From positions 1 to 42,889 of the IMG/VR virus record IMGVR_UViG_3300032308_000668: a stretch of DNA of 42,889 bases. One strand, 5' to 3'. A program made the position numbers and the translations under genes. Source of the DNA: a virus. Positions 20,893 through 37,485 of the stretch are shown in pieces. Every line of letters starts with the position of its first letter. Within the stretch, counting starts at the first letter, position 1. The notes below the pieces were generated by a model, which saw only the letters and a list, made by a program, of their open reading frames with translations, ran no database searches and was not told where the DNA came from.

Positions 20893-22032
20893 TTATTTAA
20901 AGTATGGGCCAACCATCCAAGTTACAATAGAGTATCTCACGCCTTTAGTTATAGGCTCAACACCATGCGGCATAAACGATGGGAATATTATCACAGTGCC
21001 TTTCTTTTGTTCAGGATATATTCTTTCGTGACCATTAGCTATGTAAAACTTACCACCTTCAAAGTCATCATTTAAAAATACTAATATAGTTAATTTTCTT
21101 GTTTCGTTTGAATGTTGGTGAAATGTATCTACATGAGTCTCATACTTACCTTTAACATCATACATTAAAAACTCAGATTGATTAGAGTGAGTTATATCAT
21201 ATTTCCATATATCATGATTTACATTTAATCCTATTGCTGTAAGTGTTGCTCCAATACCTGCATATAAAGGCAACTGTAATCGTTGAACGTTTCTAATATC
21301 TAAATTAATTGTGCCTTCGCCACCGCCAATAGAAGGAGGTAGTTTATCTACTTCAGGTTTAGAATATTCTTGAATAAGTTTGTCACAAAAGGCTTCAGAT
21401 ACTGCATCACGAACAGCGTAGCAATCTTCAATAGTTTGATTTGTTTGTCCGCCTTCTGTTTTACTTAAACCCAATGACTCACGCTTATCATATTTCCATT
21501 CAGCATGAGGACCATCCTGATCTACATAATGTAAGAATACTTGAGCCTGCCATTTGCCTTCTTTATAAGCTTCTCTCCAATGATATATGTCACATCCTCT
21601 ATACATGACGGCATCGCCAATCTCCATCTTAACTTCTGTCGCATTAGACTTATCTTCGTTAGCGCCCATATAGATAGGCCATACATCACCTTCAAAATCT
21701 AGTGTAAGAGTGGCTGATATTTCACAAGCTGGCCTATCTCTGTGAAGCTTTAATTCTTCATCTTGGGCGTTATAAAGTCGCGCATATGAATAAGTAGGAA
21801 ATAGTTTTAATCCACTTGCATTTTCAAAATGTGGTAATAATTGTTCTAATAAACTATCAAAAGTTACTGTGCCGTGTATGGCTTCAGACTTAGGACATTG
21901 TTCATCTTTAACTGTTTTCTTTTGGTCGACTAACCTTTTAAGTTCTCTTGTTAATTCTTTGCATGAGTCTTTGTGTAAGAAGTCTTTTAAATGTACATAG
22001 CCTTTTTCTTTAAATTCTTGAACTGTGCTCAT
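20893..22032 (-). CDS. Protein with two tandem 2OG-Fe(II) oxygenase domains
   Basis: In this 379-aa protein the C-terminal half is a classical prolyl-4-hydroxylase-like dioxygenase: H300-x-D302 (YETHVDTFH), LTILVFLNDDFEGGKF, H356 (MPHGVEP) and R366, ten residues after the second His, for 2-oxoglutarate. The N-terminal half has the same order: H97-x-D99 (LHRDRP), a strand block (ISATLTLDFEG), GDAVMYRG and H151, with K160 in the place of the Arg. It therefore appears to be a double oxygenase, possibly with one divergent domain. Such enzymes hydroxylate proteins or modified bases; the target is unknown. It overlaps the nuclease gene upstream by 23 bases. Confidence 0.85.
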   Translation of the reverse strand: MSTVQEFKEKGYVHLKDFLHKDSCKELTRELKRLVDQKKTVKDEQCPKSEAIHGTVTFDSLLEQLLPHFENASGLKLFPTYSYARLYNAQDEELKLHRDRPACEISATLTLDFEGDVWPIYMGANEDKSNATEVKMEIGDAVMYRGCDIYHWREAYKEGKWQAQVFLHYVDQDGPHAEWKYDKRESLGLSKTEGGQTNQTIEDCYAVRDAVSEAFCDKLIQEYSKPEVDKLPPSIGGGEGTINLDIRNVQRLQLPLYAGIGATLTAIGLNVNHDIWKYDITHSNQSEFLMYDVKGKYETHVDTFHQHSNETRKLTILVFLNDDFEGGKFYIANGHERIYPEQKKGTVIIFPSFMPHGVEPITKGVRYSIVTWMVGPYFK

Positions 22033-26520: not shown

Positions 26521-26547
26521 CAGCACTTAGCTTTGAAGCCAGTTCCT
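26521..26547 (-). repeat. 27-base intergenic repeat, copy C (diverged)
   Basis: This element shares ACTGGnnTCAAAGCTAA with copies at 34360-34386 and 35275-35301. It occupies most of the 48-base gap between the DUF3310-like and SleB-like genes. It differs from the other two at several outer positions. Confidence 0.6.
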
Positions 26548-26549
26548 TG

Positions 26550-26831
26550 TTATTTTTTATTATTCCGAACTTCTTGTTTTAATCTTTCTAGATACCATGA
26601 GGCCTTGTCTAAATCCTCTAGTCCGTTTTTGAATTTCCATCGCCAAACATATTTGATAATGTTAGCAGTGCATACTGCCTCGATTCCAAATAGTCCTTTG
26701 GTGGCTTCCTTGATAGCGTCAATACATTCGATTGCGCCTTGTGTGTAATGTGATGGGTGATTCACATTATCTTTGATTACTTTTTTTATTTTACTTCTAT
26801 AACTTTTTAATATTTCTGTTAACCTAGTCAT
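26550..26831 (-). CDS. DUF3310-like protein
   Basis: This 93-aa protein contains the DUF3310 signature: VNHPSHYTQGAIECIDAI, then FKNGLEDLDKASWYLERL after YVWRWK. The family is widespread in phages and has been loosely labelled nucleotide kinase-like, but the biochemical role is not established. Its start overlaps the VRR-NUC stop (ATGA). The last gene of the tiny-gene belt. Confidence 0.85.
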   Translation of the reverse strand: MTRLTEILKSYRSKIKKVIKDNVNHPSHYTQGAIECIDAIKEATKGLFGIEAVCTANIIKYVWRWKFKNGLEDLDKASWYLERLKQEVRNNKK

Positions 26832-27115
26832 TCGATCTCCTTTACTAGAGTCAATAGTGTCTCTATATTACCTTCATTTATAACGATTGCCAAGCCTTGA
26901 TTTCGTTTTATCTGCTCGATGTTGTATTCTTGCAACGCAGTAAGTTTACCTTTACCGGCTTTACACTCGATGCCAATAAACTTTCCCTTGTAGCAAACAA
27001 TGATGTCAGGCACACCACTCCGACCATATCCCGCAGTCAATGGTGAGAAATGATATGCCCCTAAATCATCTAATACTTTCTTAACTTGTTTCTTTACCTT
27101 TGCTTCAGGTGTCAT
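26828..27115 (-). CDS. VRR-NUC domain nuclease
   Basis: This 95-aa protein from ATG 27115 consists of one VRR-NUC domain: a helix at MTPEAKVKKQVKKVLDDLG, SGVPDIIVCYKGKFIGIECKAG (D and E-x-K catalytic residues) and TALQEYNIEQI. Stand-alone phage VRR-NUC proteins cut branched DNA or Holliday junctions. The start forms an ATGA overlap with the upstream stop; an ATG at 27157 would overlap that gene by 46 bases. Confidence 0.88.
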   Translation of the reverse strand: MTPEAKVKKQVKKVLDDLGAYHFSPLTAGYGRSGVPDIIVCYKGKFIGIECKAGKGKLTALQEYNIEQIKRNQGLAIVINEGNIETLLTLVKEIE

Positions 27116-27384
27116 ATGGTGGGTATTACATTTAGTTTTGATTGGCTCGATGTCCACAACGCACCCGCATCGTTGCCCTCATCATCACGCATAGCAAGAA
27201 TCCAATGGCCATCATCAAACTCAATCACGAGTCCCGATTTATCCCATGCAATATCTTCGCGTTCACGATCATCTAAATATCTCACACGGCGAATCGTTTT
27301 ACCTACCAAGAAATTACTGGCTAGGTTTCCCCAATGTTCTCTTAACTCTGCGTTGTTCGTATCAAATAATTCCATCTGTTCCAT
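27112..27384 (-). CDS. Conserved phage protein of unknown function (90 aa)
   Basis: The core VGKTIRRVRYLDDRE followed by GLVIEFDDGHWILAMRDDEGNDAGALW is a pattern I recognise from small hypothetical proteins in many phages. It is soluble and probably a compact beta-barrel. It overlaps the upstream 56-aa gene (TAATG) and the VRR-NUC gene (ATGA). Confidence 0.8.
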   Translation of the reverse strand: MEQMELFDTNNAELREHWGNLASNFLVGKTIRRVRYLDDREREDIAWDKSGLVIEFDDGHWILAMRDDEGNDAGALWTSSQSKLNVIPTI

Positions 27385-27554
27385 TATTTTTCTCCTTTGT
27401 TTTTAAATCGATCTACACTTTTATGTATCATACGAGCATAAGCACTCGCGTCTTGTAATGCACTATCTTCAAACATTGCTTGTAGCTTAATTGTTTCCTC
27501 CCACTCAATGCTTGATACTTCTTCATCAACGTAATCTTCGTAGTCTCTCTCCAC
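27384..27554 (-). CDS. Small acidic protein (56 aa, GTG start)
   Basis: GTG at 27554 follows the stop of the 26-aa peptide and has GGGAG upstream. The product (ERDYEDYVDEEVSSIEWEET..., ending RFKNKGEK) is helical and acidic with a basic tail. It overlaps the next gene (TAATG). No family recognised. Confidence 0.7.
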   Translation of the reverse strand: MERDYEDYVDEEVSSIEWEETIKLQAMFEDSALQDASAYARMIHKSVDRFKNKGEK

Positions 27555-27635
27555 TTAATCTCCCTTTCTTGTCCATGTTTTGAATAAAATATAAATAAAC
27601 CATACTACACATATAAACCTTATCGTATCAATCAT
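27555..27635 (-). CDS. 26-aa single-span membrane peptide
   Basis: ATG 27635 overlaps the upstream stop (TGATG), and the TAA directly precedes the GTG of the next gene. The peptide is mostly one hydrophobic helix (IRFICVVWFIYILF) followed by KTWTRKGD, a positive-inside tail. Its exact fit between two genes argues that it is real. Confidence 0.55.
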   Translation of the reverse strand: MIDTIRFICVVWFIYILFKTWTRKGD

Positions 27636-27916
27636 CAGTCCTCACACACTCCGCCAATACATGAACGACTAATAATTTCTTCTTCTAAATCGTTGTATGC
27701 GTCTGCTTGTAAGAGGTGATCTTGATGTTTCTTTTGTCGATCATATAAACTATGATCCGTCTCGACTGCGTATGCTTTGACAACCATGCCTTTCTCTCGT
27801 AATGGTTCTGTTAACAATGTAGTGACATGGTCACTCGGTTCTACTTCCCATGTCTTTACCTCTTCATACTTACTTTCTTCCATACTTACCTCGACTACCA
27901 CGCTAAACTTTTTCAT
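27635..27916 (-). CDS. Small soluble protein (93 aa)
   Basis: It begins MKKFSVVVEVSMEESKYEEV, recalling the start of the MKKF proteins at 32252-32688, but the rest differs. The C-terminus has CIGGVCED. TAGGAG precedes the ATG. Function unknown; possibly a distant member of the same expanded family. Confidence 0.7.
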   Translation of the reverse strand: MKKFSVVVEVSMEESKYEEVKTWEVEPSDHVTTLLTEPLREKGMVVKAYAVETDHSLYDRQKKHQDHLLQADAYNDLEEEIISRSCIGGVCED

Positions 27917-27924
27917 ATATTCTC

Positions 27925-28149
27925 CTAATGTATTTTCTCTTTGTTCATATGCTTATCTAAAATCTGATCTAACTCTTTTTTCTTTTCGATAATTCTAATT
28001 GCTATTTGCTGACATTCTTGCACCTCGCCTATCGACATATTCCTTGATATCTCTAGTGCTAACTCTGTCGCTTGGTCTGACTCGGTATCACTTGGTGCTA
28101 CAACTGCTCTTACCATTGCCTCTACTAATGCATCTTCTTTAGTCATCAT
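27925..28149 (-). CDS. Small helical protein (74 aa)
   Basis: Helix-rich (LVEAMVRAVVAPSDTESDQA, then IAIRIIEKKKELDQILDKHM). ATGATG start overlapping the upstream stop. No family recognised. Confidence 0.7.
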   Translation of the reverse strand: MMTKEDALVEAMVRAVVAPSDTESDQATELALEISRNMSIGEVQECQQIAIRIIEKKKELDQILDKHMNKEKIH

Positions 28150-28325
28150 CTCATCACCATTACAAGTAAAAGAAACACATTAATCCCTACCGATACCACT
28201 GCACAAAATCTTAATCGTCTGTAGTGTTCTTTGTTGATCGGTGTGTATTCGCTTAAATAGACTTCTCTGTCATAGCCTTTATAACTTGGCGATGATGGTG
28301 TTTTAAATATCGGATTTGTTTTCAT
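28146..28325 (-). CDS. Small tail-anchored membrane protein (59 aa)
   Basis: ATG 28325 has a GGAGGG site upstream; an earlier in-frame ATG at 28340 does not. A 35-residue polar part is followed by a C-terminal membrane helix (FCAVVSVGINVFLLLVMVM). It overlaps both neighbours. Function unknown. Confidence 0.65.
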   Translation of the reverse strand: MKTNPIFKTPSSPSYKGYDREVYLSEYTPINKEHYRRLRFCAVVSVGINVFLLLVMVMR

Positions 28326-28551
28326 GCTTACCCTCCTCAAAATTTTTTATTGATTGCATATACTGATTTGTTGCATAGTTAATACCTCTTACAATACCTA
28401 ATCGCATGGCATCATAGAACATCTTTGCATCTTTCTCTGACCTTGTTCTTTTATGCACATCGACATACTCGTAATACTCTGCTACTGCTACTTCTATAAT
28501 GTCTTCTTCAAACTTGCGTTTCTTTTCTTCGTTCTTCTGATGTTGTGTCAC
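28303..28551 (-). CDS. Small helical protein (82 aa, GTG start)
   Basis: The GTG at 28551 forms a GTGA overlap with the upstream stop. The product has charged N- and C-termini and a middle helix (VAVAEYYEYVDVHKRTRS, then MRLGIVRGINYATNQY). No family recognised. Confidence 0.7.
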   Translation of the reverse strand: MTQHQKNEEKKRKFEEDIIEVAVAEYYEYVDVHKRTRSEKDAKMFYDAMRLGIVRGINYATNQYMQSIKNFEEGKHENKSDI

Positions 28552-28712
28552 TTGTATATCCTCCCTAGTCCCGAAAAAATACTTTCCAAATCTTTAGGTT
28601 CAAACGCTTTCTTATCAAATTCAAACTTTGTTTTCCTACCATTACCATGTTTGACATAGCCTGTCACCATAATCTGTTCTACGATTATTTGTTTTTGTTT
28701 CTTATCTACCAT
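28548..28712 (-). CDS. Small basic protein (54 aa)
   Basis: The product starts MVDKKQKQIIVEQIMVTGYV and continues GNGRKTKFEFDKKAF, ending RIYK. Basic, probably beta-rich. AAGGAAA precedes the ATG and the stop overlaps the next GTG. No family recognised. Confidence 0.75.
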   Translation of the reverse strand: MVDKKQKQIIVEQIMVTGYVKHGNGRKTKFEFDKKAFEPKDLESIFSGLGRIYK

Positions 28713-28723
28713 TTCATTTTCCT

Positions 28724-28960
28724 TTAATAGTCACCATCGGGATCACCATACTTCTGTGCTTGGTCTTCTAGTATATCACGATTGTATTCATACTCAATCT
28801 CATCTAGATATTGTTCCATCTCACTAATCATGCTATCTGTTGGTGGGTCTATCTCTTCTGTTCTGCCATCTTCCCACTGGATTGTGATCCACCACTTTTT
28901 AATCTTAATAGGTTCTTGTGGTTCAGGTGGGTCTAGGTCTCTTTCTAGTTCTTCGTTCAT
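28724..28960 (-). CDS. Small very acidic protein (78 aa)
   Basis: About a third of the residues are Asp or Glu (EELERDLDPPEPQEP, then MEQYLDEIEYEYNRDILED). A short strand pair WWITIQWEDGRTEEI lies between. AAGGAGA precedes the ATG. Acidity of this degree is seen in DNA-mimic inhibitors, but nothing more specific supports that here. Confidence 0.75.
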   Translation of the reverse strand: MNEELERDLDPPEPQEPIKIKKWWITIQWEDGRTEEIDPPTDSMISEMEQYLDEIEYEYNRDILEDQAQKYGDPDGDY

Positions 28961-28969
28961 ACTTTCTCC

Positions 28970-29143
28970 TTAATCTTCAAATGTTGTTTTGTAATCGCGT
29001 TCAATTTCTTCATCGGTATAGTTATTAAAACCTTTAAAGCCATGCCTCCACACAAATTCAAACTCTTGCTCGGTCATGTTCTCTACTGCCCATTCTGTTT
29101 CATACTTAATAAGGGCTTCTCGTTTTTCTTCAATCGTAATCAT
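28970..29143 (-). CDS. Small acidic protein (57 aa)
   Basis: The product reads MITIEEKREALIKYETEWAV and then EFEFVWRHGFKGFNNY, ending YKTTFED. ATGA overlap at the start. Helical; no family recognised. Confidence 0.75.
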   Translation of the reverse strand: MITIEEKREALIKYETEWAVENMTEQEFEFVWRHGFKGFNNYTDEEIERDYKTTFED

Positions 29144-29364
29144 GTTGTTTCCCTTTCAAAGTAGTTCATACATTGTTCATAGATACCATTAAATAAGTCT
29201 TGTCCTAACTCTGTGTTGTATGAGTTCCCATCTTCGTCTTCTGTAATGCATTTGCTTTCTAGGTCTAACAAAAATACTACATCGTCAAAGATTGCCTCTG
29301 CCAACTCCCCCGCTTTTTCGTTAGGTGAATTGTCTATCATGTCTGTGCCTGTAATTAGCTTCAT
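29140..29364 (-). CDS. Small acidic protein (74 aa)
   Basis: The start at 29364 has AAGGAAA upstream and overlaps the previous gene by 44 bases. The sequence is acidic (AEAIFDDVVFLLDLESKCITEDEDG). No family recognised. Confidence 0.7.
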   Translation of the reverse strand: MKLITGTDMIDNSPNEKAGELAEAIFDDVVFLLDLESKCITEDEDGNSYNTELGQDLFNGIYEQCMNYFERETT

Positions 29365-29542
29365 ATCGTTTTCCTTTTCCTATGTGTTTATCTCGTTCTT
29401 CTTCAGACTTATACCATGCCACATCGGTGGCGAAGTCTTCCCCTGTATCGTATCGATAGATGCCATATACAAACCCTTGATTATCATGTCCGTAGTATTC
29501 ATCTAATCTTTCGTCATACCAATTTACTGCCACGAGTCTCAT
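29321..29542 (-). CDS. Small Tyr/Asp-rich protein (73 aa)
   Basis: It begins MRLVAVNWYDERLDEYYGHD with a strand-turn pattern, then a basic end (YEANYRHRHDRQFT). ATGA overlap with the upstream gene. No family recognised. Confidence 0.72.
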   Translation of the reverse strand: MRLVAVNWYDERLDEYYGHDNQGFVYGIYRYDTGEDFATDVAWYKSEEERDKHIGKGKRYEANYRHRHDRQFT

Positions 29543-29844
29543 CTTGATGCACCTATCATTCGTCTATCAATCTCATCTAGTTCTGCTTGTCGTTCTGCCT
29601 CTAGCTTGTTTGCCTCCTTTATTTTGTTAACTCGTGCCTTATGTTCTTCCCATGCTTTGTTGTCAGCTTCCCACTCGTCTGGGTATTTATCTTGAAACCA
29701 GTTTTCGAAGTATGTTCCGTCTTCCATGTAGTGAAGTAAGACATCGTTGTTATTGATCGGGTAATGATCATATAGATGTGCCATAAACTCTTCTTCAAAA
29801 AATATCTGTGGGTCATCTATTCCTGCTCTAAATTTTGGTTTCAT
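29539..29844 (-). CDS. Small acidic coiled-coil protein (101 aa)
   Basis: The N-terminal half is aromatic and acidic (DPQIFFEEEFMAHLYDHY). The C-terminal half is a charged helix (AWEEHKARVNKIKEANKLEA, RQAELDEIDRRM) that could self-associate. It overlaps both neighbours. No family recognised. Confidence 0.75.
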   Translation of the reverse strand: MKPKFRAGIDDPQIFFEEEFMAHLYDHYPINNNDVLLHYMEDGTYFENWFQDKYPDEWEADNKAWEEHKARVNKIKEANKLEAERQAELDEIDRRMIGASR

Positions 29845-30037
29845 ATGTTGCCTCCTGTTCTGTTATCCAACCACTCTCAATTAACTCTGCCCTTGACATT
29901 GATAAATAATAATCCCTCATGCCTTTCAATGCCCACTTGGTGAGTTCCCCTTTACCCATGTCATACACTTCTTGCTCAATACCAAAAAGCAATTCATCTA
30001 GTTCATATTGGTTTAGTTCGTTGGCTTTGTTATTCAT
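29828..30037 (-). CDS. Small soluble protein (69 aa)
   Basis: The start is ATG 30037, chosen because GAGGAGG lies just upstream and it forms an ATGA overlap. An ATG at 30058 would lie inside the upstream gene. Helical and acidic (ELDELLFGIEQEVYDMGKGE, MRDYYLSMSRAELIESGW). No family recognised. Confidence 0.72.
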   Translation of the reverse strand: MNNKANELNQYELDELLFGIEQEVYDMGKGELTKWALKGMRDYYLSMSRAELIESGWITEQEATYETKI

Positions 30038-30435
30038 GCTACCTCCTCTACTACCCATCTTTCTTCTGTATCATAATTACAATACCTACAATCAGACGCA
30101 TCAATTACTTCTAGCCAATCCTCATCGTCATATGCTTCTTTGCACTTTTTATATTTTTTATAGTCGTAGTAATATCCCATTTTGTCTTCATCGTATTCAT
30201 CACAAATCTCTTCAGCGTCTTCGTGAAAACAATTACCCCCACAATACTCACACTTCTCATGTTCCCCTAATTCTGTGTAGTCATCTTCTACACTTTCCAT
30301 GCACCAATCAGCAACACCTTTTGCCGTATCCCAAAAGTTTAAATCATCATCGGCATCGTCCCATACATGAACCCATGTCTCTTGATAAACCTTAATCTTT
30401 TTTCCTGTCGCCTCGTTTATATAGATGTCACTCAT
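30034..30435 (-). CDS. Acidic cysteine-rich protein (133 aa)
   Basis: It contains CEYCGGNCFH (C62, C65, C69), C78, C98 and a late pair C116, C119 (CRYC). Together these could form one or two zinc sites. Acidic runs (WDDADDDLNFWD, DEYDEDKMGYYYDY) dominate the rest. The start has AAGGGG upstream. It is the second largest protein of the belt. No family recognised; a zinc-binding, protein- or DNA-mimicking role is possible. Confidence 0.75.
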   Translation of the reverse strand: MSDIYINEATGKKIKVYQETWVHVWDDADDDLNFWDTAKGVADWCMESVEDDYTELGEHEKCEYCGGNCFHEDAEEICDEYDEDKMGYYYDYKKYKKCKEAYDDEDWLEVIDASDCRYCNYDTEERWVVEEVA

Positions 30436-30592
30436 CTTCTTTCCCCTTAAAGAATGCCTCTTTCAATCCTTGTCCATATGGGTCTTTCTTTGCTTTGTTT
30501 GTTATCCTTACCCATATCCCATGCCTAGCAAATAGTTCTAGTGCGTCTTCTAAATTATCTATTGATGTTGTATCGCCTTTGTATTTAATCAT
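30428..30592 (-). CDS. Small protein (54 aa)
   Basis: The product reads MIKYKGDTTSIDNLEDALEL then FARHGIWVRITNKAKKD and ends FFKGKEDE. It looks like one alpha/beta unit. ATGA overlap at its start; its TGA lies inside the next gene's first codons. No family recognised. Confidence 0.75.
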   Translation of the reverse strand: MIKYKGDTTSIDNLEDALELFARHGIWVRITNKAKKDPYGQGLKEAFFKGKEDE

Positions 30593-30759
30593 TTTAAACT
30601 CTCCCATTCCTGTTCTAGTTCTTTTATATTCATATTCTCTAATCCTTTAAACCCATACATGAGCAAATCAAATATCATTCCGTCATTCACCTCTGTATTG
30701 TTTTGGCAAAGGGTTAAATTCTCGTTTACAATCTTTTTAATTAGTTCATCTCTACTCAT
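30589..30759 (-). CDS. Small helical protein (56 aa)
   Basis: The product reads MSRDELIKKIVNENLTLCQN, then MIFDLLMYGFKGLENMNIKE, ending EWESLK. ATGA overlaps on both sides. GAGGAGG precedes the ATG. No family recognised. Confidence 0.75.
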   Translation of the reverse strand: MSRDELIKKIVNENLTLCQNNTEVNDGMIFDLLMYGFKGLENMNIKELEQEWESLK

Positions 30760-30917
30760 ATACTAACCTCCTCAAATGTAAGCCCAAATCTATATGGAAA
30801 ATTATGTTGGTCATTCAGAAACAAACACAAATACTTCAACACTTCCTCATAATCTTTACCTACAATCCTAAAATCATCATCGCCCTCTGTGTAGCTAACG
30901 AATACTTCTTTCATCAT
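30756..30917 (-). CDS. Duplicated small protein, copy 1 (53 aa)
   Basis: The product (MMKEVFVSYTEGDDDFRIVG ... LCLFLNDQHNFPYRFGLTFE) is about 90% identical (47 of 52 aligned positions by my reading) to the product of 31676-31846. ATGA overlaps on both sides. Probably a small alpha/beta fold; function unknown. The pair is a recent local duplication separated by four unrelated genes. Confidence 0.8.
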   Translation of the reverse strand: MMKEVFVSYTEGDDDFRIVGKDYEEVLKYLCLFLNDQHNFPYRFGLTFEEVSI

Positions 30918-31114
30918 ACTTCCTCCTTTGCGGGTTCAAATCTTTCTGCCGTCCATGCTATGTGGTCAGCACAATTGTTGTATCTCTTGACTGCCTCGTA
31001 TCGTATTGCCTCCATGAGATTTAAATATTCTTGTGGGTCTTCCACTCCCTCGATCTCATCAGCCTCTTGCATTGCCTCTATTACATTCTTATATATCTGA
31101 TTGGCTTTACTCAT
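30914..31114 (-). CDS. Small helical protein (66 aa)
   Basis: The start is ATG 31114, placed seven bases after a perfect GGAGGAA; the longer frame from 31162 would cover half of the upstream gene. The helix-rich sequence reads QIYKNVIEAMQEADEIEGVE, then YLNLMEAIRYEAVKRYNN. No family recognised. Confidence 0.75.
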   Translation of the reverse strand: MSKANQIYKNVIEAMQEADEIEGVEDPQEYLNLMEAIRYEAVKRYNNCADHIAWTAERFEPAKEEV

Positions 31115-31307
31115 CTCGTTCCTCCGTAGTATTAAGTTTAAATTTGTATGCAAAGTCATCACTTGCAGAGTAGTTATTAGTCATGCCATGACCCAAATCA
31201 TCGATAATACTTTGTAGTGCATTTCCAAGTGAATCGCCATCATCACAAGTAATAACGATTTCACACTTCCAACCATCACCCTTTACTAAATCTATATCTT
31301 TACTCAT
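31107..31307 (-). CDS. Small acidic protein (66 aa)
   Basis: It reads MSKDIDLVKGDGWKCEIVIT then ALQSIIDDLGHGMTNNY. One alpha/beta unit by pattern. It overlaps both neighbours by about eight bases. No family recognised. Confidence 0.72.
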   Translation of the reverse strand: MSKDIDLVKGDGWKCEIVITCDDGDSLGNALQSIIDDLGHGMTNNYSASDDFAYKFKLNTTEERDE

Positions 31308-31533
31308 CTTCGTCCTCCTTATTTAAAAAGCCCATGTCATCTTCAGTTAAAACTTCTGCCTCGTCCCAATACTCATCTTCAATAGTTCTATCGTATGTAT
31401 CCCAATTCACTTCCTCGCCATTGCCTGTCTTGGCTTTTTCTATTGCCCATTCCTCGTTATCTGCCTCGACTGCTATGGTGACTTCTTCTTGCTCTGTGAC
31501 ATACCTTGTATACCTTACATAAAATGTTTTCAT
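31300..31533 (-). CDS. Small acidic MKxF-family protein (77 aa)
   Basis: It shares the layout MK-F-V, a Val-rich strand, then VEADNEEWAIEKA with the genes at 32252 and 32470 (SAESEEALLEN, DAESEEQVKEL). About a third of residues are Asp or Glu, and the tail is LNKEDEDE. The three appear to be paralogs of a strand-helix unit. Function unknown; a DNA-mimic or protein-inhibitor role is conceivable. Confidence 0.75.
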   Translation of the reverse strand: MKTFYVRYTRYVTEQEEVTIAVEADNEEWAIEKAKTGNGEEVNWDTYDRTIEDEYWDEAEVLTEDDMGFLNKEDEDE

Positions 31534-31679
31534 GCACCCTCCTCATCTTCTTTTTTATATACATATGCTTGAATGCCTCTGTCATTTAATGCCTCTGTAA
31601 TGTCGTCTATCCAATCACCACTACTTTCGAAGACACCACTTACTTCTATTACATAATCTTCTGTTTTTCTCTTACTCAT
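31530..31679 (-). CDS. Small acidic protein (49 aa)
   Basis: The product reads MSKRKTEDYVIEVSGVFESS, then WIDDITEALNDRGIQAYVYK, ending KEDEEGA. A ferredoxin-like strand-helix-strand pattern. ATGA overlaps on both sides. No family recognised. Confidence 0.75.
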   Translation of the reverse strand: MSKRKTEDYVIEVSGVFESSGDWIDDITEALNDRGIQAYVYKKEDEEGA

Positions 31680-31846
31680 ATCTTTACCTCCCCAAATGTA
31701 AGTCCAAATCTATATGGGAAGTTATCTTGGTCGTTTAGGAATAGGCATAGATACTTCAACACTTCCTCATAGTCTTTACCTACAATTCTAAAATCATCAT
31801 CGCCCTCTGTATAACTAATAAATACTTGCTTCATTTCCTCACTCAT
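31676..31846 (-). CDS. Duplicated small protein, copy 2 (56 aa)
   Basis: It is near-identical to the product of 30756-30917 (differences E/Q, V/I, H/D, E/G and S/K by my alignment) with three extra N-terminal residues if ATG 31846 is used. An ATG at 31834 would match copy 1 exactly. ATGA overlaps on both sides support the longer start. Function unknown. Confidence 0.8.
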   Translation of the reverse strand: MSEEMKQVFISYTEGDDDFRIVGKDYEEVLKYLCLFLNDQDNFPYRFGLTFGEVKI

Positions 31847-32064
31847 TTTGTATCCTCCTCGTAAGTATCAATCTCAACATCGTCATATCCGTCTTCTAGG
31901 TATTCGTTCTTGATAGCGACTGCGTGTTGATAGGTTAAGTGTGTATGTTCCTCGCAACCCCCGACCCATACCGAGTAATTACCTAGTGGCAATACTTTAT
32001 GATCGTCTTTGTGTTCGGTGTATATCTCTCGTGTGACTCGGTCTATCTCGTTAAACAAGTTCAT
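31843..32064 (-). CDS. Small acidic protein (73 aa)
   Basis: It reads MNLFNEIDRVTREIYTEHKD, then SVWVGGCEEHTHLTYQHAVA and ends VEIDTYEEDTK. Cys and two His in GGCEEHTH could bind a metal. It has ATGA overlaps on both sides. No family recognised. Confidence 0.75.
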   Translation of the reverse strand: MNLFNEIDRVTREIYTEHKDDHKVLPLGNYSVWVGGCEEHTHLTYQHAVAIKNEYLEDGYDDVEIDTYEEDTK

Positions 32065-32255
32065 GCTATTGCCTCCTCGTTATATGTTAGTTCTCGTTCT
32101 TTAAGTTCGTTGAGTAGTTCATCGTCTGACCATTCTTTATATGGTGACCTATTCTTTAATACCTCGCTGAAATACCAAAAGTCCCCATTCTCTGCGTCTT
32201 TAATCATAGTATCTATGTCGTCCCACACTAACTGCTCTATAACTTTGGTTCTCAT
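32061..32255 (-). CDS. Small acidic protein (64 aa)
   Basis: Helical and Trp/Asp-rich (IEQLVWDDIDTMIKDAENGD, then SDDELLNELKERELTYN). ATGA overlaps on both sides. No family recognised. Confidence 0.72.
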   Translation of the reverse strand: MRTKVIEQLVWDDIDTMIKDAENGDFWYFSEVLKNRSPYKEWSDDELLNELKERELTYNEEAIA

Positions 32256-32473
32256 ACAACCTCCTTGATTTCTTCTACCTCATCTAACTCAACAAACCCT
32301 GTGGTCTCATCGTTATAATCTCTATCTAATGTATCCACATAGGTCGCATTCTCCCAAAAGTTTTGGGTATCAAAGTTTTCTAGTAGAGCCTCTTCTGACT
32401 CTGCACTAATGTGATACTCTTTTAATACCCAATCTTTAACTTCTTCCCTTACTAATACTTTAAACTTTTTCAT
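32252..32473 (-). CDS. Small acidic MKxF-family protein (73 aa)
   Basis: It begins MKKFKVLVREEVKDWVLKEY with HISAESEEALLENF and ends VELDEVEEIKEVV. Closely similar in layout to the next gene upstream (32470-32688) and to 31300-31533. The ATGA overlap with 32470 suggests tandem duplication followed by divergence. Function unknown. Confidence 0.78.
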   Translation of the reverse strand: MKKFKVLVREEVKDWVLKEYHISAESEEALLENFDTQNFWENATYVDTLDRDYNDETTGFVELDEVEEIKEVV

Positions 32474-32688
32474 TCTTTTACCTCCCTTATCTCTGCCTCA
32501 TCATAGTAAACATCATCTACATCAAAACCCCATTGGCTTTCTTTTGTGTCCCAATATTCTGCCTTATCCATAAACTCATAGTCGTTCATCAATTCTTTTA
32601 CTTGTTCCTCTGACTCTGCGTCAATGTAGTATGTCACTCTCACTACTTCTATTCTTTTTTCGGGTATTACTACCTCAAACTTTTTCAT
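32470..32688 (-). CDS. Small acidic MKxF-family protein (72 aa)
   Basis: It begins MKKFEVVIPEKRIEVVRVTY with YIDAESEEQVKELMN and ends YYDEAEIREVKE. Paralog-like to 32252-32473 by start, strand pattern, the AESEE core and an acidic tail. Function unknown. Confidence 0.78.
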   Translation of the reverse strand: MKKFEVVIPEKRIEVVRVTYYIDAESEEQVKELMNDYEFMDKAEYWDTKESQWGFDVDDVYYDEAEIREVKE

Positions 32689-32689
32689 G

Positions 32690-33133
32690 TTATTCCCCTA
32701 ATTTGCGTTGATAAAATTTAACGATGTGATACCCATCAACTTGTTCATAACCTAATTGATTTAGTATTGTGTATTCGGGTTCGAAGTCTTTGCCCTCTAT
32801 AAACGCTTTGTATTCTTCTTCTAACTTCGGGTCACCTCTAAACTCTACATTGTTATACACATCGTTTGCATCTGAAGTGCAACTTTCCCCATCAATTACA
32901 AAGACTAGGTCTGTATCATCTTCTTTACCTAGCATAAAATCTTTAGGATTACACCAACCTAGTTCACTATGGAATTGGATTGGTGTTAGGACATACTCGC
33001 CTTCAATGTCAATATCTGCCCACTTCTGTTCACCAAATATGTATGCCTTTTCATTGTCACCACGAGTCCATACCTCGCAGTCCCATGATGACCATTTATA
33101 AGGTCTGATCGTTGTTGTTGTTTGGTTTTCCAT
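32690..33133 (-). CDS. Acidic protein of unknown function (147 aa)
   Basis: This is the largest protein of the tiny-gene belt. Trp-rich, beta-leaning N-terminus (IRPYKWSSWDCEVWTRGDNE, then YIFGEQKWADIDIEGEYVLT), acidic middle, and an end reading LNQLGYEQVDGYHIVKFYQR. No membrane span. It starts two bases after the stop of the 66-aa gene. No family recognised. Confidence 0.75.
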   Translation of the reverse strand: MENQTTTTIRPYKWSSWDCEVWTRGDNEKAYIFGEQKWADIDIEGEYVLTPIQFHSELGWCNPKDFMLGKEDDTDLVFVIDGESCTSDANDVYNNVEFRGDPKLEEEYKAFIEGKDFEPEYTILNQLGYEQVDGYHIVKFYQRKLGE

Positions 33134-33135
33134 GA

Positions 33136-33336
33136 TTACTTTGCCTCCGTGTCTTGATATGGGTTTTTAAAGTAATTGCCTAGCACTTCTTGATTGTCTA
33201 GGATATCTTGTTTTAATTGGTCGGCTTTGTAGTCGCCGTTAGCTATGTCTACTAAAATATCAATGCACTGATCGATATGAAAATTGCCTCGACCACCTAG
33301 CCATAACCTTATATCTAAATCATTTAGCTTTTGCAT
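33136..33336 (-). CDS. Small protein (66 aa)
   Basis: It reads MQKLNDLDIRLWLGGRGNFH, then DILVDIANGDYKADQLKQDI. The blend of helices and the short polar loops suggest a small soluble fold. GGGG stands a short distance before the ATG. No family recognised. Confidence 0.72.
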   Translation of the reverse strand: MQKLNDLDIRLWLGGRGNFHIDQCIDILVDIANGDYKADQLKQDILDNQEVLGNYFKNPYQDTEAK

Positions 33337-33347
33337 ATGTTTCCCCT

Positions 33348-33479
33348 TTATTCTTCTAAAAATGCTCGGTCTAATAGGCTCTCACCTTGCATAGCAAGTT
33401 TTAAAGCCTCGTCATAAGTAAGGTTTGACCCTACTATCCTGTTAATTCTGTAATCCACCACAAAATAAGTCTTTTCCAT
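33348..33479 (-). CDS. Small protein (43 aa)
   Basis: It reads MEKTYFVVDYRINRIVGSNL then TYDEALKLAMQGESLLDRA. A strand-strand-helix unit like those of phage 'modulator' peptides. GGAGG lies upstream of the ATG. No family recognised. Confidence 0.7.
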   Translation of the reverse strand: MEKTYFVVDYRINRIVGSNLTYDEALKLAMQGESLLDRAFLEE

Positions 33480-33488
33480 ACTGCCTCC

Positions 33489-33695
33489 CTAGTAGTTAAT
33501 TAAAAGTTTGTTAGCCAACTCTGCAATACCTAGTTTGTCGAAGTGATCGTTTAATACTGCCAAGATTTTGTCTTGGTCTTCTTGGCTTAACTCGTCCACT
33601 TCAAAACTAACCATACTTTCGTTGTTATTAATATTTACTACTGCGTCTAACTTTGTTGATCCGTTTAAAAGTCCTACTAGTTTTGCTTTAATCAT
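33489..33695 (-). CDS. Small acidic protein (68 aa)
   Basis: It reads MIKAKLVGLLNGSTKLDAVV then SFEVDELSQEDQDKILAVLN. Strand-helix pattern. GAGGAG precedes the ATG. First strongly supported gene of the belt. No family recognised. Confidence 0.78.
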   Translation of the reverse strand: MIKAKLVGLLNGSTKLDAVVNINNNESMVSFEVDELSQEDQDKILAVLNDHFDKLGIAELANKLLINY

Positions 33696-33719: not shown

Positions 33720-33896
33720 CTAATTTAGTATGGCTTTCGGTATTGCTTTGTTCGTTGCCATGTAGAAAACGATACTCGCCTTTTTTATGTTTGTAAAGTA
33801 TTTGTTTACTATTTCTTCATATTTATTTTTGTCTGTTTTTGTATTTTTTTGTCTTACTTTACTAACTTGGCATGGTTCTTGCTTTACTAATTTCAT
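33720..33896 (-). CDS. Possible small Lys-rich protein (58 aa)
   Basis: ATG 33896 to TAG 33720 encodes MKLVKQEPCQVSKVRQKNTK and then YEEIVNKYFTNIKKASIVFY. It reads like a short basic helical protein, but no ribosome site is visible and the A-rich strand makes chance ORFs likely. If real it would be the first gene of the belt, 24 bases before the next. Confidence 0.4.
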   Translation of the reverse strand: MKLVKQEPCQVSKVRQKNTKTDKNKYEEIVNKYFTNIKKASIVFYMATNKAIPKAILN

Positions 33897-34145
33897 TCTA
33901 GTTCGTATCGCTTGGCTATTAAGTTTGGATTTTGTTTGCGATTCCGCCTACTTTTTTGTGCGTTGTTTACCTTGTTATTTGCCAAGTTTGACCTCGTTTT
34001 AAATGTTCCTAGTTCCGTTTTGGGTTAAGTTTACTAATAGAACAAGAACGAGGGTTTTTGAAGGGAGAAAAAGTGTTGTAAGTCTTTGATTATATTATAT
34101 ATTATATTATTATTATTACTTAACAAGTGGTTATTTTTTAAGCAA

Positions 34146-34281
34146 TGTTCCATGTTCCTGCCCTAAAAAAACGATGATTGGCAAGGTCAACGATGTTGCT
34201 CACTGCATTACATGGTCTCTTGATTCCTAACTTCGTAGACTTCGGACACCCCCCTATTTGCACAAGGTGGAACATGGAACA
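34146..34281. repeat. Inverted repeat with GGAACA units
   Basis: TGTTCCATGTTCC at 34146-34158 is the exact reverse complement of GGAACATGGAACA at 34269-34281. Each arm holds two GGAACA units. Further GGAACA units are at 34318, 34330 and 34341, and one in reverse at 34004. Confidence 0.7.
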
Positions 34282-34359
34282 AACGAATAAAATCAAGCAC
34301 TTACGAGATATAAAACAGGAACAATTTTGGGAACATTGTCGGAACAGGGTCGACCGAGT

Positions 34360-34386
34360 GAGCGATTAGCTTTGAAACCAGTTCTC
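34360..34386 (-). repeat. 27-base intergenic repeat, copy A
   Basis: It differs from copy B (35275-35301) at one position in 27. Minus-strand core: ACTGGTTTCAAAGCTAATC. It lies downstream of the Gp88-like gene's terminator. Confidence 0.8.
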
Positions 34387-34450
34387 CCTCCTTGTCAGGA
34401 CATAGTCCCTACAATGTAAAATACTTGAGTAAAATAGTCAGGCATAGAAA

Positions 34451-34475
34451 ATAAAAAAGCCCTCATACGAGGGCT
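34451..34475 (-). terminator. Rho-independent terminator after the Gp88-like gene
   Basis: On the minus strand AGCCCTC, loop GTAT and GAGGGCT form a perfect 7-bp stem followed by TTTTTAT. It lies 23 bases past the stop of the Gp88-like gene, so it ends that transcript. Confidence 0.88.
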
Positions 34476-34497: not shown

Positions 34498-35160
34498 TTA
34501 ATGAACATGGTAGCTTACATTGTCAACTTTATTATCCCAGCATGAACGGCATGAACCACATTTACCATCTTGACTAGGTGCTACACATTTAAACCCAGTG
34601 AGTTCTTGTTTACTATGCACGGTTGAGGTCAGGATGTTTGCGAACCCTTGTAATGATTTAGGCAACTTGGCGGGTTGGTCGATCATCATCGTTGACATTC
34701 TTATGACTAGGTTACTAGGCACTTCATTATTTTTAACAAAATTCTTTACAATGTCATATTCGCGGGTTGGTAGCCAGTGTAAAGTTTTAGGGGATTGTCT
34801 AGCAACCTGTGCTATTTTGTAAAGATGATCAACTGATTGAAGGTCACCTGAATCATGCCATCGAAAATAGGGTTTGTTACCTATTAATTTAACCATAGCT
34901 TTTACCCAGTCAGGTTTTGTTATTGATTCAAGCCTTTTATATTGAGCGGGTTCTATGTTGCTTTTGAACCTGTGATAATTACCTTTCAACGCGTAACATC
35001 CTTCGCATACTGAACCCTTGACATTCACAAGTTTTGACCCTGTAATGCATTCCTTAGCGGGTAGTGAATAAGATAGGCTAGGCATTTTCTTAGTTCGTGT
35101 GCATGATCCCGCGATGTTGATCGCGTCTTTTATATAAAACTTAATTGGCATGGTTTGCAT
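34498..35160 (-). CDS. Gp88-like cysteine-rich protein
   Basis: This 220-aa protein has the Gp88 pattern known from mycobacteriophages: SYSLPAKECITG, VCEGCYALKGNY (C52, C55), FRWHDSGDLQ (100-108), WLPTREYDIV and a final cluster CVAPSQDGKC-x2-C-x2-C (C192, C201, C204, C207). C20 and C38 complete two possible metal or Fe-S sites. The biochemical function of the family is not known; a radical-SAM relation has been suggested to me by the cysteine layout but no CxxxCxxC triad is present. It has its own promoter and terminator, so it is a monocistronic transcript. Confidence 0.8.
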   Translation of the reverse strand: MQTMPIKFYIKDAINIAGSCTRTKKMPSLSYSLPAKECITGSKLVNVKGSVCEGCYALKGNYHRFKSNIEPAQYKRLESITKPDWVKAMVKLIGNKPYFRWHDSGDLQSVDHLYKIAQVARQSPKTLHWLPTREYDIVKNFVKNNEVPSNLVIRMSTMMIDQPAKLPKSLQGFANILTSTVHSKQELTGFKCVAPSQDGKCGSCRSCWDNKVDNVSYHVH

Positions 35161-35274: not shown

Positions 35275-35301
35275 GAGCGATTAGCTTTGAGACCAGTTCT
35301 C
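35275..35301 (-). repeat. 27-base intergenic repeat, copy B
   Basis: Nearly identical to copy A. It starts eight bases beyond the T-run of the terminator at 35310-35331 and lies before the Gp88-like promoter. Confidence 0.8.
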
Positions 35302-35967: not shown

Positions 35968-35983
35968 GGAGGCTTACGCCTCC
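35968..35983 (-). promoter_or_regulatory. Hairpin enclosing the ArdC stop codon
   Basis: GGAGGC, loop GTAA, GCCTCC on the minus strand. The loop holds the TAA of the ArdC-like gene. No T-run follows, and the ribosome site of the next gene begins two bases beyond, so the structure may tune coupling between the two genes. Confidence 0.5.
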
Positions 35984-36816
35984 TCTGCCTCCTCGTTAGT
36001 TGATTTAGTTGTATAGTCCAGGATCTTTTGTGCTAGTGCTGAAGCCTTGAGTATATTCTTAGGATCATCGTTAAGCACCTTGAGCCAGCTAGCTATATAT
36101 GATGCATGCTGTAATTGGCCATCGATCTTATTGTGAGCGCATAACATTGCTGATCCGAGCTCTGCGACTAGCTCCTCGAAGGCATAAGCCTCGTTACCAA
36201 AACGGCCTGAGAAATCTCGATTCAATCGTGACTCGTGTCCAGTCCAGTGTGATAACTCATGCAATGAAGTCGCATAATAATCCGCGCTTGATTTAAATTG
36301 ATCGAGCTCCGGTAACTGAATATAGTCAGCTGAAGGTACATAAAATGCGCGGTTGCCTCCATGCTTGATGATAGCTCTCTGAGCTTTAATGAATGCCTCG
36401 CACGATGCAATTGATTCATTCATGGTGCGCTCAGCCGGTGCAGGTAACTCAAGGCCGTCGACTTGATCCGCATTAAATACAGTGTAAGTCTTAAGCATCG
36501 GGATCTTTTTTACTTCATTGGTAACTCGATCCTGCACTTCAAGCGGGCTGAAGTAGATCACTGGCACTCCCTTGGAGCCCTTGCGCACTTGAGCGCCAAC
36601 GCTCTGAGCTTGCTTATATGTTACCCAGTTGTGAGTAGATCCTGGCATCATTGATAGCTGAATGAAGTTGATGCCGTTGTAATATCTTTTAGATATTGGA
36701 TTGAATGGTGCATCGATGCCGTTACTATTCCAGGGCTTTACCCATGGTGCTGTGCCTGCTTCGAGTGCCTTGATAACGTTATCGGTTATCGATTGTGCTA
36801 TTGAATGATTATTCAT
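35974..36816 (-). CDS. ardC: ArdC-like antirestriction protein
   Basis: This 280-aa protein combines an N-terminal ArdC ssDNA-binding domain (ITDNVIKALEAGTAPWVKPW, then YNGINFIQLSM, WVTYKQAQSVGAQVRKGSKG) with a zinc metallopeptidase-like C-terminal domain. The latter has LHELSHWTGH (H186, E187, H190) and a third ligand region AFEELVAELGSAMLCA. ArdC proteins from plasmids and phages shield incoming DNA from restriction. It is the first gene behind a strong promoter, so it is likely expressed immediately on entry. Function is by family. Confidence 0.9.
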   Translation of the reverse strand: MNNHSIAQSITDNVIKALEAGTAPWVKPWNSNGIDAPFNPISKRYYNGINFIQLSMMPGSTHNWVTYKQAQSVGAQVRKGSKGVPVIYFSPLEVQDRVTNEVKKIPMLKTYTVFNADQVDGLELPAPAERTMNESIASCEAFIKAQRAIIKHGGNRAFYVPSADYIQLPELDQFKSSADYYATSLHELSHWTGHESRLNRDFSGRFGNEAYAFEELVAELGSAMLCAHNKIDGQLQHASYIASWLKVLNDDPKNILKASALAQKILDYTTKSTNEEAEEA

Positions 36817-37140: not shown

Positions 37141-37485
37141 CTAAATAGCCTTGGGATCGAAGTTGTAAAGCTCGGAGTAGACGTCTTTAATACGCATGAA
37201 TTTAGCCCCATGTTGATCGAAGTCATCATCGCCTCGAACGTAGAGAGCTAGGTGCACCATTTCATGAAGGAGAGTTTGGAAGATAGTAATGAAGTGACCA
37301 CAAGAACCAGAACTTATTTCAATTGCCATGTCTACTTCGTCAAAACAGCCATATATACCAGGGTTTTTGATGACACGGAACTTAACTTTGTCTGACTTAG
37401 GCATAGGAAGTCTATTAAAAGGCGGCATTTTACACGCCATGTTGTACAAAATTTCTAAATTCTTCTTAGTTAACGTGGTTTTCAT
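37141..37485 (-). CDS. SprT-like zinc metalloprotein
   Basis: This 114-aa protein carries LLHEMVHLAL (H74, E75, H78) and the third ligand region DQHGAKF (H92), the SprT/Spartan-type zincin pattern, in a minimal domain. GCFDEVDMAIEI precedes it. SprT-type proteases act on DNA-protein crosslinks in cells; in phages the role is unknown. It starts at the divergence point with the packaging operon and is the most upstream minus-strand gene. Confidence 0.8.
   Translation of the reverse strand: MKTTLTKKNLEILYNMACKMPPFNRLPMPKSDKVKFRVIKNPGIYGCFDEVDMAIEISSGSCGHFITIFQTLLHEMVHLALYVRGDDDFDQHGAKFMRIKDVYSELYNFDPKAI

Follow-up and report, generated by a model that had tools for sequence, protein, structure and literature searches.

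Variable regions of tiny genes with no assigned role are widespread in phages and mostly unexplained. One such region, the ORFanage of the lytic aquatic cyanophage S-PM2, is a contiguous run of 33 ORFans that is dispensable in culture and lost on passage; it is present in metagenomes, where its synteny is rarely conserved, and the S-PM2 authors suggested mispackaging as the route of loss and illegitimate recombination as that of gain (PMC4503421). Short conserved boundary sequences have been described at mosaic junctions of lambdoid phages and in one mycobacteriophage case (PMC3029335). Here we analyze a belt of 33 small open reading frames (ORFs), g01 to g33, on the minus strand of IMG/VR record IMGVR_UViG_3300032308_000668 (positions 26550-33695); the window is this whole viral record, 42,889 bases. 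We consider it probable, from comparison with related sequences, that the belt is two things: a stable distal block, g23-g33, and a proximal array, g01-g22, of single-ORF cassettes drawn from a shared pool.

The nearest described kin of the belt is the phage ORFanage or hypervariable accessory region, and it is best filed as a variant of such a region. Small genes without relatives in Pfam (at the cut-off) or convincing ones in PHROGs make up 31 of the 33, and variable content and order between conserved flanks is found for g01-g22, not for g23-g33. Like the S-PM2 ORFanage, the belt is a run of 33 small ORFs, known here from sequence; here, however, orthologues are found, the genes are under purifying selection, the exchange unit is a single ORF and the joint lies at the start codon. 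The likeness to boundary sequences is exchange at gene borders with recurring short sequences, but the recurring element here is an overlap of Shine-Dalgarno (SD) sequence and start codon inside the upstream ORF, and it recurs across most joints of the array, not at a single junction. A run of about 19 small genes, most of them overlapping, directly precedes DNA polymerase I in phage DSL-LC04 (OR003939, lake metagenome); homologues of the present cassettes were undetectable there, and the products of that run are not acidic overall. Integron arrays also consist of single-gene cassettes that are reordered in the array. They are an analogy only; in the belt no integrase or attC-like site was seen, and the joint is translational.

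The 33 ORFs cover 7,146 nt at 99.3% coding and 4.62 genes/kb, with a mean length of 72 amino acids (aa). A second, independent tiling script returned the identical 33 stops and a different start codon at two. An earlier sequence-only reading had described 33 genes on one strand over this interval, about a third of them under 60 codons and nearly all linked by overlaps. The number, the strand (minus) and the lengths (11 of 33 below 60 aa) were confirmed; the linkage is less uniform than claimed, in that 25 of the 32 joints abut or overlap and seven are gaps of 1-11 nt. Sixteen joints overlap by exactly 4 nt (ATGA or GTGA), two by 1 nt, and the rest by 0 or 8-23 nt. A strong SD lies ahead of 24 of the 33 starts, compared with 1 of 34 internal in-frame ATGs. 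Among ORFs of 43 aa or longer, those with a strong SD number 24 on the coding strand and none on the other, and they average 0.86 (maximum 4) in 200 dinucleotide shuffles.

We found homologues of 32 of the 33 frames in relatives drawn from IMG/VR (their loci carry labels such as L024, L035, L049 and L087); g02 is the sole exception, and g03, g12 and g20 each occur in one relative. The ratio of nonsynonymous (dN) to synonymous (dS) change, omega, had medians of 0.05-0.42 across all 30 testable genes, indicating purifying selection; g02, with no relative, g03, with one, and g20, with one near-identical relative, fall outside this test. For 102 pairs pooled, substitutions at codon positions 1, 2 and 3 numbered 731, 390 and 1780, and omega was 0.14 in the reading frame. 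Of the five wrong frames, four gave 1.19, 1.96, 1.26 and 2.27; the remaining one, antisense, gave 0.28 yet contains 265 stops. For the in-window duplicates g09 and g14, dN is far below dS (Table 1). The check by conservation and dN/dS that the sequence-only reading had proposed was thus passed. The coding strand is rich in A and G, which makes stop codons rarer in some frames, and most of the ORFs could on that account be chance frames in purine-rich DNA; dN/dS, the wrong-frame controls, the SD counts and the shuffles reject this explanation, refuting it for 30 genes, and we regard it as highly improbable. The belt ORFs are real genes, for at least 30 of the 33. A candidate additional belt gene, g00 (33720-33896), was dropped: it lacks an SD and shows 1.5 synonymous versus 5.5 nonsynonymous changes.

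Although the genes proved real, conserved and selected, the earlier reading had overlooked the split of the belt. The order of g23-g33 is constant in 18-24 loci (g29 in three only); insertions occur occasionally, one example being a GIY-YIG protein encoded between g31 and g32. The block leads on to replication genes. For g01-g22, clustering of the ORFs and an order map revealed different sets of families in different orders among the relatives. The 233 genes of 19 belts fall into about 62 families, of which 27 occur in a single belt only, all these counts being approximate because the tiling adds a few spurious ORFs at leader ends. Sharing between belts is low (median Jaccard 0.21) and is only loosely tied to how closely the conserved genes are related (rho 0.37). 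Right-hand neighbors are diverse: there are 12 for the MK(K/T)F family, which comprises g05, g06 and g11 and has 21 members in 15 loci, and nine for the g15/g22 family.

The unit of exchange was read from blocks, defined as stretches of at least 88% identity between variable parts, with shifted boundaries (1000 rounds) as the null. The median block is 215 nt long, about one ORF. Left ends coincided with a start codon or its SD in 68 of 113 cases (60%; null mean 11.0, or 10%, maximum 29), and right ends with a stop in 63 of 101 (62%; null mean 8.7, or 9%, maximum 19). Joints were then aligned at the ATG to see which gene carries the ribosome-binding site. Where the upstream neighbor differed, identity 5' of the ATG was only 0.29-0.51 (0.29-0.39 at random joints); where the downstream neighbor differed, the ORF kept its own SD-bearing tail, 0.82-0.93 identical. 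Together these results define the cassette as running from ATG to ATGA, with the SD of the next gene inside its 3' end. A cluster of block ends at -16 to -9 had been considered as breaks at the SD and was rejected as largely an alignment effect of the shared GGAGG; it was not used because the ATG-aligned joints place the break at the ATG.

The joint has the pattern GAGGAGG-spacer-ATGA, in which the SD is coded by the last codons (GAG GAG ...) of the preceding ORF. GAG accounts for 27%, 47% and 32% of the codons at positions -3, -4 and -5 from the stop and 2-15% at other tail positions, and the ratio of GAG to GAA among Glu codons is 223:135 in the last eight codons versus 527:836 elsewhere (p 1.5e-15). 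Genes g05, g08, g13 and g17 each follow several unrelated ORFs, and every such ORF supplies an SD and spacer of its own at its end. These data show that a cassette extends from its start codon to its stop codon, commonly with an ATGA stop/start overlap at the end, and includes the SD of the next gene. Homology between phages ends at the start codon, which leaves each ribosome-binding site with the ORF upstream of it, so that an ORF of any kind can be replaced while its neighbors are translated as before. We found no description in the open-licence literature of this rule, that the tail of an ORF carries the ribosome-binding site of the next gene, though an earlier description may exist.

Thirty-four shared cassettes had a nucleotide identity above 90% and more than 8 points over the core identity of the same phage pair, in pairs whose conserved genes are 76-90% identical. 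For example, g07 is 98.5% identical at the nucleotide level to its counterpart in L035 (core 82%), and g05 is 97.7% identical to that in L084 (core 81%); some cassettes recur in the more distant contigs L106, L107 and L110. Smaller pieces are shared as well. In one L060 ORF, a front resembling g09 is fused to a Cys-rich module that L072 and L076 encode as an ORF by itself, the tail KELDEIDRQMVR...HKSYDY terminates proteins of two families, the central Cys segment of g17 is missing from the L084 version, and tail segments of g19 are recombined with other families in relatives, with fused variants in L024, L035 and L084. At the level of sequence, these comparisons show recombination below the whole ORF, and cassettes that have evidently moved between phages, duplicated and diverged, with segments recombined between ORFs. 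Fused or split ORFs with a CxxC...CCGENHF module and a DEIDRQM tail lie at 6869-7231 in L060, 8018-8242 in L072, 7962-8183 in L076 and 11880-12239 in L024.

Breaks of this kind could be produced by ordinary phage mosaicism, in which illegitimate recombination can strike at any position and only joints at gene ends survive selection; the arrangement of SD and ATGA would then merely reflect dense packing and have no part in exchange. We give this about an even chance. Mosaicism is the standard view for mycobacteriophages, in which most junctions have no shared boundary sequences (PMC3029335), and where the break lies at the start codon and no homology persists upstream of it, a homologous joint is not required. 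Mosaicism does not predict the stronger SDs of the variable part (at least five matched bases in 67%, versus 14% in other window genes), though high expression would produce them too. It fits most of our preferred explanation, the only difference being whether the joint drives exchange. A tentative proposal, in our view rather unlikely, is that the SD-spacer-ATGA joint truly serves as an adaptor for exchange: most joints of the array would share this short recurring sequence, recombination by phage or host would make use of it, and the cassette system would need no integrase.

The products are mostly acidic, as had been claimed: 25 of the 33 are below -0.05 net charge per residue, and four are basic. 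The pooled charge is -0.099 per residue versus +0.100 after base shuffling, and in the variable belts the median is -0.141, with an isoelectric point below 5 for 87% of products. Base composition was rejected as the cause, given that shuffles yield the opposite sign, and so were acidic C-termini. The SD-coded tail does lift Glu from 13.7% to 23.4% in the last eight residues, but it is only a small part of the acidity because the charge is still -0.127 per residue without the tail. The acidity would instead reflect selection on the proteins for binding basic surfaces of host enzymes, in some cases possibly by DNA mimicry.

T7 Ocr and other DNA-mimic antirestriction proteins are likewise small and strongly acidic; Ocr has 34 acidic and 6 basic residues in 116 (PMC4872106). 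High negative charge density is found in some belt products only, for example g11, g17 and g23, which at about -0.21 to -0.25 net charge per residue resemble Ocr. These values, and the 25 products that are more acidic than base composition gives, favor the view that DNA mimicry, with restriction, BREX or CRISPR enzymes blocked by it, is the main role of the small acidic proteins. In contrast, Pfam, PHROGs and PDB profile searches of five families gave no sequence match to a known mimic, and no structural match was found: the AlphaFold2 model of g04 is good (predicted local distance difference test, pLDDT, 85.6; predicted template-modeling score 0.80) and has three uncultured-phage matches, but a fold search found no PDB counterpart. 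More than 60 families with one charge sign are also hard to read as one mechanism, and we judge mimicry as the main role to be unlikely. Acidity by itself is no test of DNA mimicry, which, judging from charge, is one possibility for a few products.

Genes g01-g31 have no Pfam match at the cut-off and no convincing PHROG match, and no belt protein matches a known anti-defence family in Pfam, PHROGs or PDB profile searches of five families, the last yielding weak matches only. Antirestriction genes are found in the neighborhood: ArdC just upstream of the belt, and a DarB-like C-terminal region in the 1618-aa protein. In the relative L049, ArdC is contiguous with the belt head, and a 399-aa C5 DNA methyltransferase occupies a cassette slot with 4-nt overlaps on both sides; the places of ArdC and of this methyltransferase would point indirectly to a counter-defence role. 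Anti-defence or host takeover would be the likeliest class for the products. Accessory products would act against the host, and the useful combination would change with the host; this would explain why content turns over although purifying selection acts on each gene. Transcription is a frequent target of the small early proteins of lytic phages, and the belt products may instead be directed at host physiology (RNA polymerase, ribosome or metabolism) and contribute little directly against defence. The profile of the MK(K/T)F family has as its weak best match RNA polymerase subunit epsilon (E 0.0035); protein G domains score nearly equally (E 0.0075), and the epsilon match may thus be fold-like or due to chance. 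The g05 model is poor (pLDDT 70), with no PDB match found. The epsilon match was set aside as too weak, and we think the physiological explanation rather unlikely.

By its position the belt would fit an early polycistron, read early by host RNA polymerase from a conserved leader that follows a terminator, and running into the SleB-like and replication genes; no terminator-like site was found within the belt on the coding strand. The direction is leftwards, from the GP88 gene, terminator and leader through the 33 ORFs to the SleB-like hydrolase, small genes and replication genes. Of the three copies of the 25-nt element GAACTGGTTTCAAAGCTAATCGCTC, one precedes the GP88 gene, one heads the belt leader and one lies immediately ahead of the SleB-like gene; the element is conserved in relatives at the first two sites, and at both it comes after a terminator or T-run. 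It could be an antitermination, promoter or regulator site. The belt leader (34009-34350) also contains eight TGTTCC/GGAACA hexamers, out of 23 in the whole window, around an AT-rich stretch and in opposite orientations on either side; this cluster is a candidate replication origin or operator array.

Several points weigh against a belt of early, host-directed cassettes exchanged ORF by ORF. Sharp ORF-wise breaks can come from random recombination plus selection, with the joint not guiding exchange, and adjacency was retained in 109 of 292 testable cases, so some neighbors travel together. Genes g02, g03 and g20 fall outside the selection evidence. The products of the proximal part match no known anti-defence family (Pfam, PHROGs), and one methyltransferase in one relative is thin evidence on the function of other genes. 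In this window the families of g05, g09 and g15 each have two or three members, and dosage could account for that instead of an arms race. The comparable belt of DSL-LC04 is not acidic, and acidity therefore belongs to this lineage and not to small-gene belts generally. Finally, "early" rests on position.

The distal block ends in the two families that the sequence-only reading had recognized. DUF3310 is clear in g33 (PF11753, 67.3 bits versus a cut-off of 24, E 1.2e-18), whereas VRR-NUC in g32 is under the Pfam cut-off (PF08774, 18.8 versus 23.8 bits), though PHROG 93 endonuclease matches the stretch holding g32 (E 7.9e-19); g32 still looks like a small nuclease of the VRR-NUC kind. The g31 protein is 41.5% identical to gp17 of Methylophilales phage Venkman. 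Between the g31 and g32 homologues lie HNH-like (family F30) and GIY-YIG-like (F54) genes in L057 and L032 and in L070 and L039, and these insertions at one point of the distal block are possible homing endonucleases.

By gene content (terminase, portal, DNA polymerase A, helicase, primase/helicase) the window is from a tailed phage. Its terminase is 52% identical to that of DSL-LC04 and 47-51% identical to those of Pelagibacter phages HTVC023P and HTVC027P; a megablast of 20000-42889 against isolated phages gave no matches, and searches for tRNA genes and in Rfam found none. In bacterial genomes, no g31 homologue was found, and the terminase has one relative, in an uncultured bin. A second family, F75, is GP88-like by eye and takes the belt head position in L049 and L076. 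The DarB-like region and ArdC are present in the same phage, and a gene of phage Venkman is also annotated as SprT-like. Coordinates are collected in Table 1.

Table 1. Positions of the belt genes and other features in the window (aa, amino acids; net, net charge; nt, nucleotide).
Feature	Position	Strand	Basis or remark
Variable, cassette-exchanging part g01-g22	28970..33695	-	order map, breakpoints, gene exchange
g01, 68 aa, first belt gene, cassette pool	33489..33695	-	SD; family in 5 belts; omega 0.22, 1 pair
g02, 43 aa, relative not found	33348..33479	-	strong SD only
g03, 66 aa	33136..33336	-	one relative, L087
g04, 147 aa, beta-rich predicted fold	32690..33133	-	family in 10 loci; omega 0.27
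g05, 72 aa, MK(K/T)F family	32470..32688	-	omega 0.19
g06, 73 aa, MK(K/T)F family	32252..32473	-	omega 0.42
g07, 64 aa	32061..32255	-	omega 0.09
g08, 73 aa	31843..32064	-	10 loci, five different right neighbors; omega 0.08
g09, 56 aa, paralogue of g14	31676..31846	-	g09/g14 dN 0.05, dS 1.30
g10, 49 aa	31530..31679	-	omega 0.19
g11, 77 aa, MK(K/T)F family, net -19	31300..31533	-	omega 0.22
g12, 66 aa	31107..31307	-	omega 0.13, 1 pair
g13, 66 aa	30914..31114	-	11 loci, six right neighbors; omega 0.11
g14, 53 aa, paralogue of g09	30756..30917	-	85% nt copy of 31673-31834; omega 0.10
g15, 56 aa, G(F/W)KG family, shared with g22	30589..30759	-	omega 0.15
g16, 54 aa	30428..30592	-	omega 0.26
g17, 133 aa, CxxC pairs, net -28	30034..30435	-	9 loci; omega 0.15
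g18, 69 aa	29828..30037	-	omega 0.19
g19, 101 aa	29539..29844	-	omega 0.18
g20, 73 aa	29321..29542	-	one relative, 99% aa
g21, 74 aa	29140..29364	-	18 loci; start at 29364 backed by homology; omega 0.13
g22, 57 aa, G(F/W)KG family	28970..29143	-	omega 0.28
Conserved distal block g23-g33	26550..28960	-	family clustering and order map
g23, 78 aa, net -18, first gene of conserved distal block	28724..28960	-	24 loci; omega 0.23
g24, 54 aa, basic	28548..28712	-	23 loci; omega 0.16
g25, 82 aa, GTG start	28303..28551	-	20 loci; omega 0.18
g26, 59 aa, hydrophobic C-terminal segment	28146..28325	-	23 loci; omega 0.18
g27, 74 aa	27925..28149	-	18 loci; omega 0.26
g28, 93 aa	27635..27916	-	24 loci; omega 0.13
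g29, 26 aa, hydrophobic segment	27555..27635	-	3 loci; omega 0.15
g30, 56 aa, GTG start	27384..27554	-	24 loci; omega 0.16
g31, 90 aa, best conserved belt gene	27112..27384	-	57 IMG/VR loci; omega 0.08
g32, 95 aa, predicted VRR-NUC/Hjc-like nuclease	26828..27115	-	omega 0.14
g33, 93 aa, DUF3310	26550..26831	-	omega 0.15
25-nt element GAACTGGTTTCAAAGCTAATCGCTC, three copies	35275-35299, 34360-34384, 26521-26545	-	
Conserved block after terminator, candidate belt promoter CTGACT-17-TACATT	34408..34441	-	consensus match only
Intrinsic terminator between GP88 gene and belt leader	34458..34475	-	conserved in relatives
GP88-family protein (Pfam PF17338), Cys motifs	34498-35160	-	just upstream of belt leader
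ArdC antirestriction	35974-36816		just upstream of the belt
SprT-like metalloprotease gene	37141-37485	-	in several relatives at far side of early region
379-aa protein, two parts matching PHROGs labelled "ferrochelatase" and 2OG-Fe(II) oxygenase	20893-22032	-	
1618-aa protein, C-terminal 690 residues match PHROG of DarB-like antirestriction proteins	8161-13017	+	E 7.5e-82

In this belt the exchange unit, the joint and the rule that spares the neighbors can be read from the sequence. GAG-rich ORF tails followed by ATGA offer a cue for finding such arrays, including genes of fewer than 60 codons that annotation pipelines may miss. The roughly 60 small protein families, for most of which reference databases hold no relatives, merit a screen for anti-defence or host-takeover activity. 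If the joint is a true exchange adaptor, lytic phages would trade single, translation-ready accessory genes out of a common pool.

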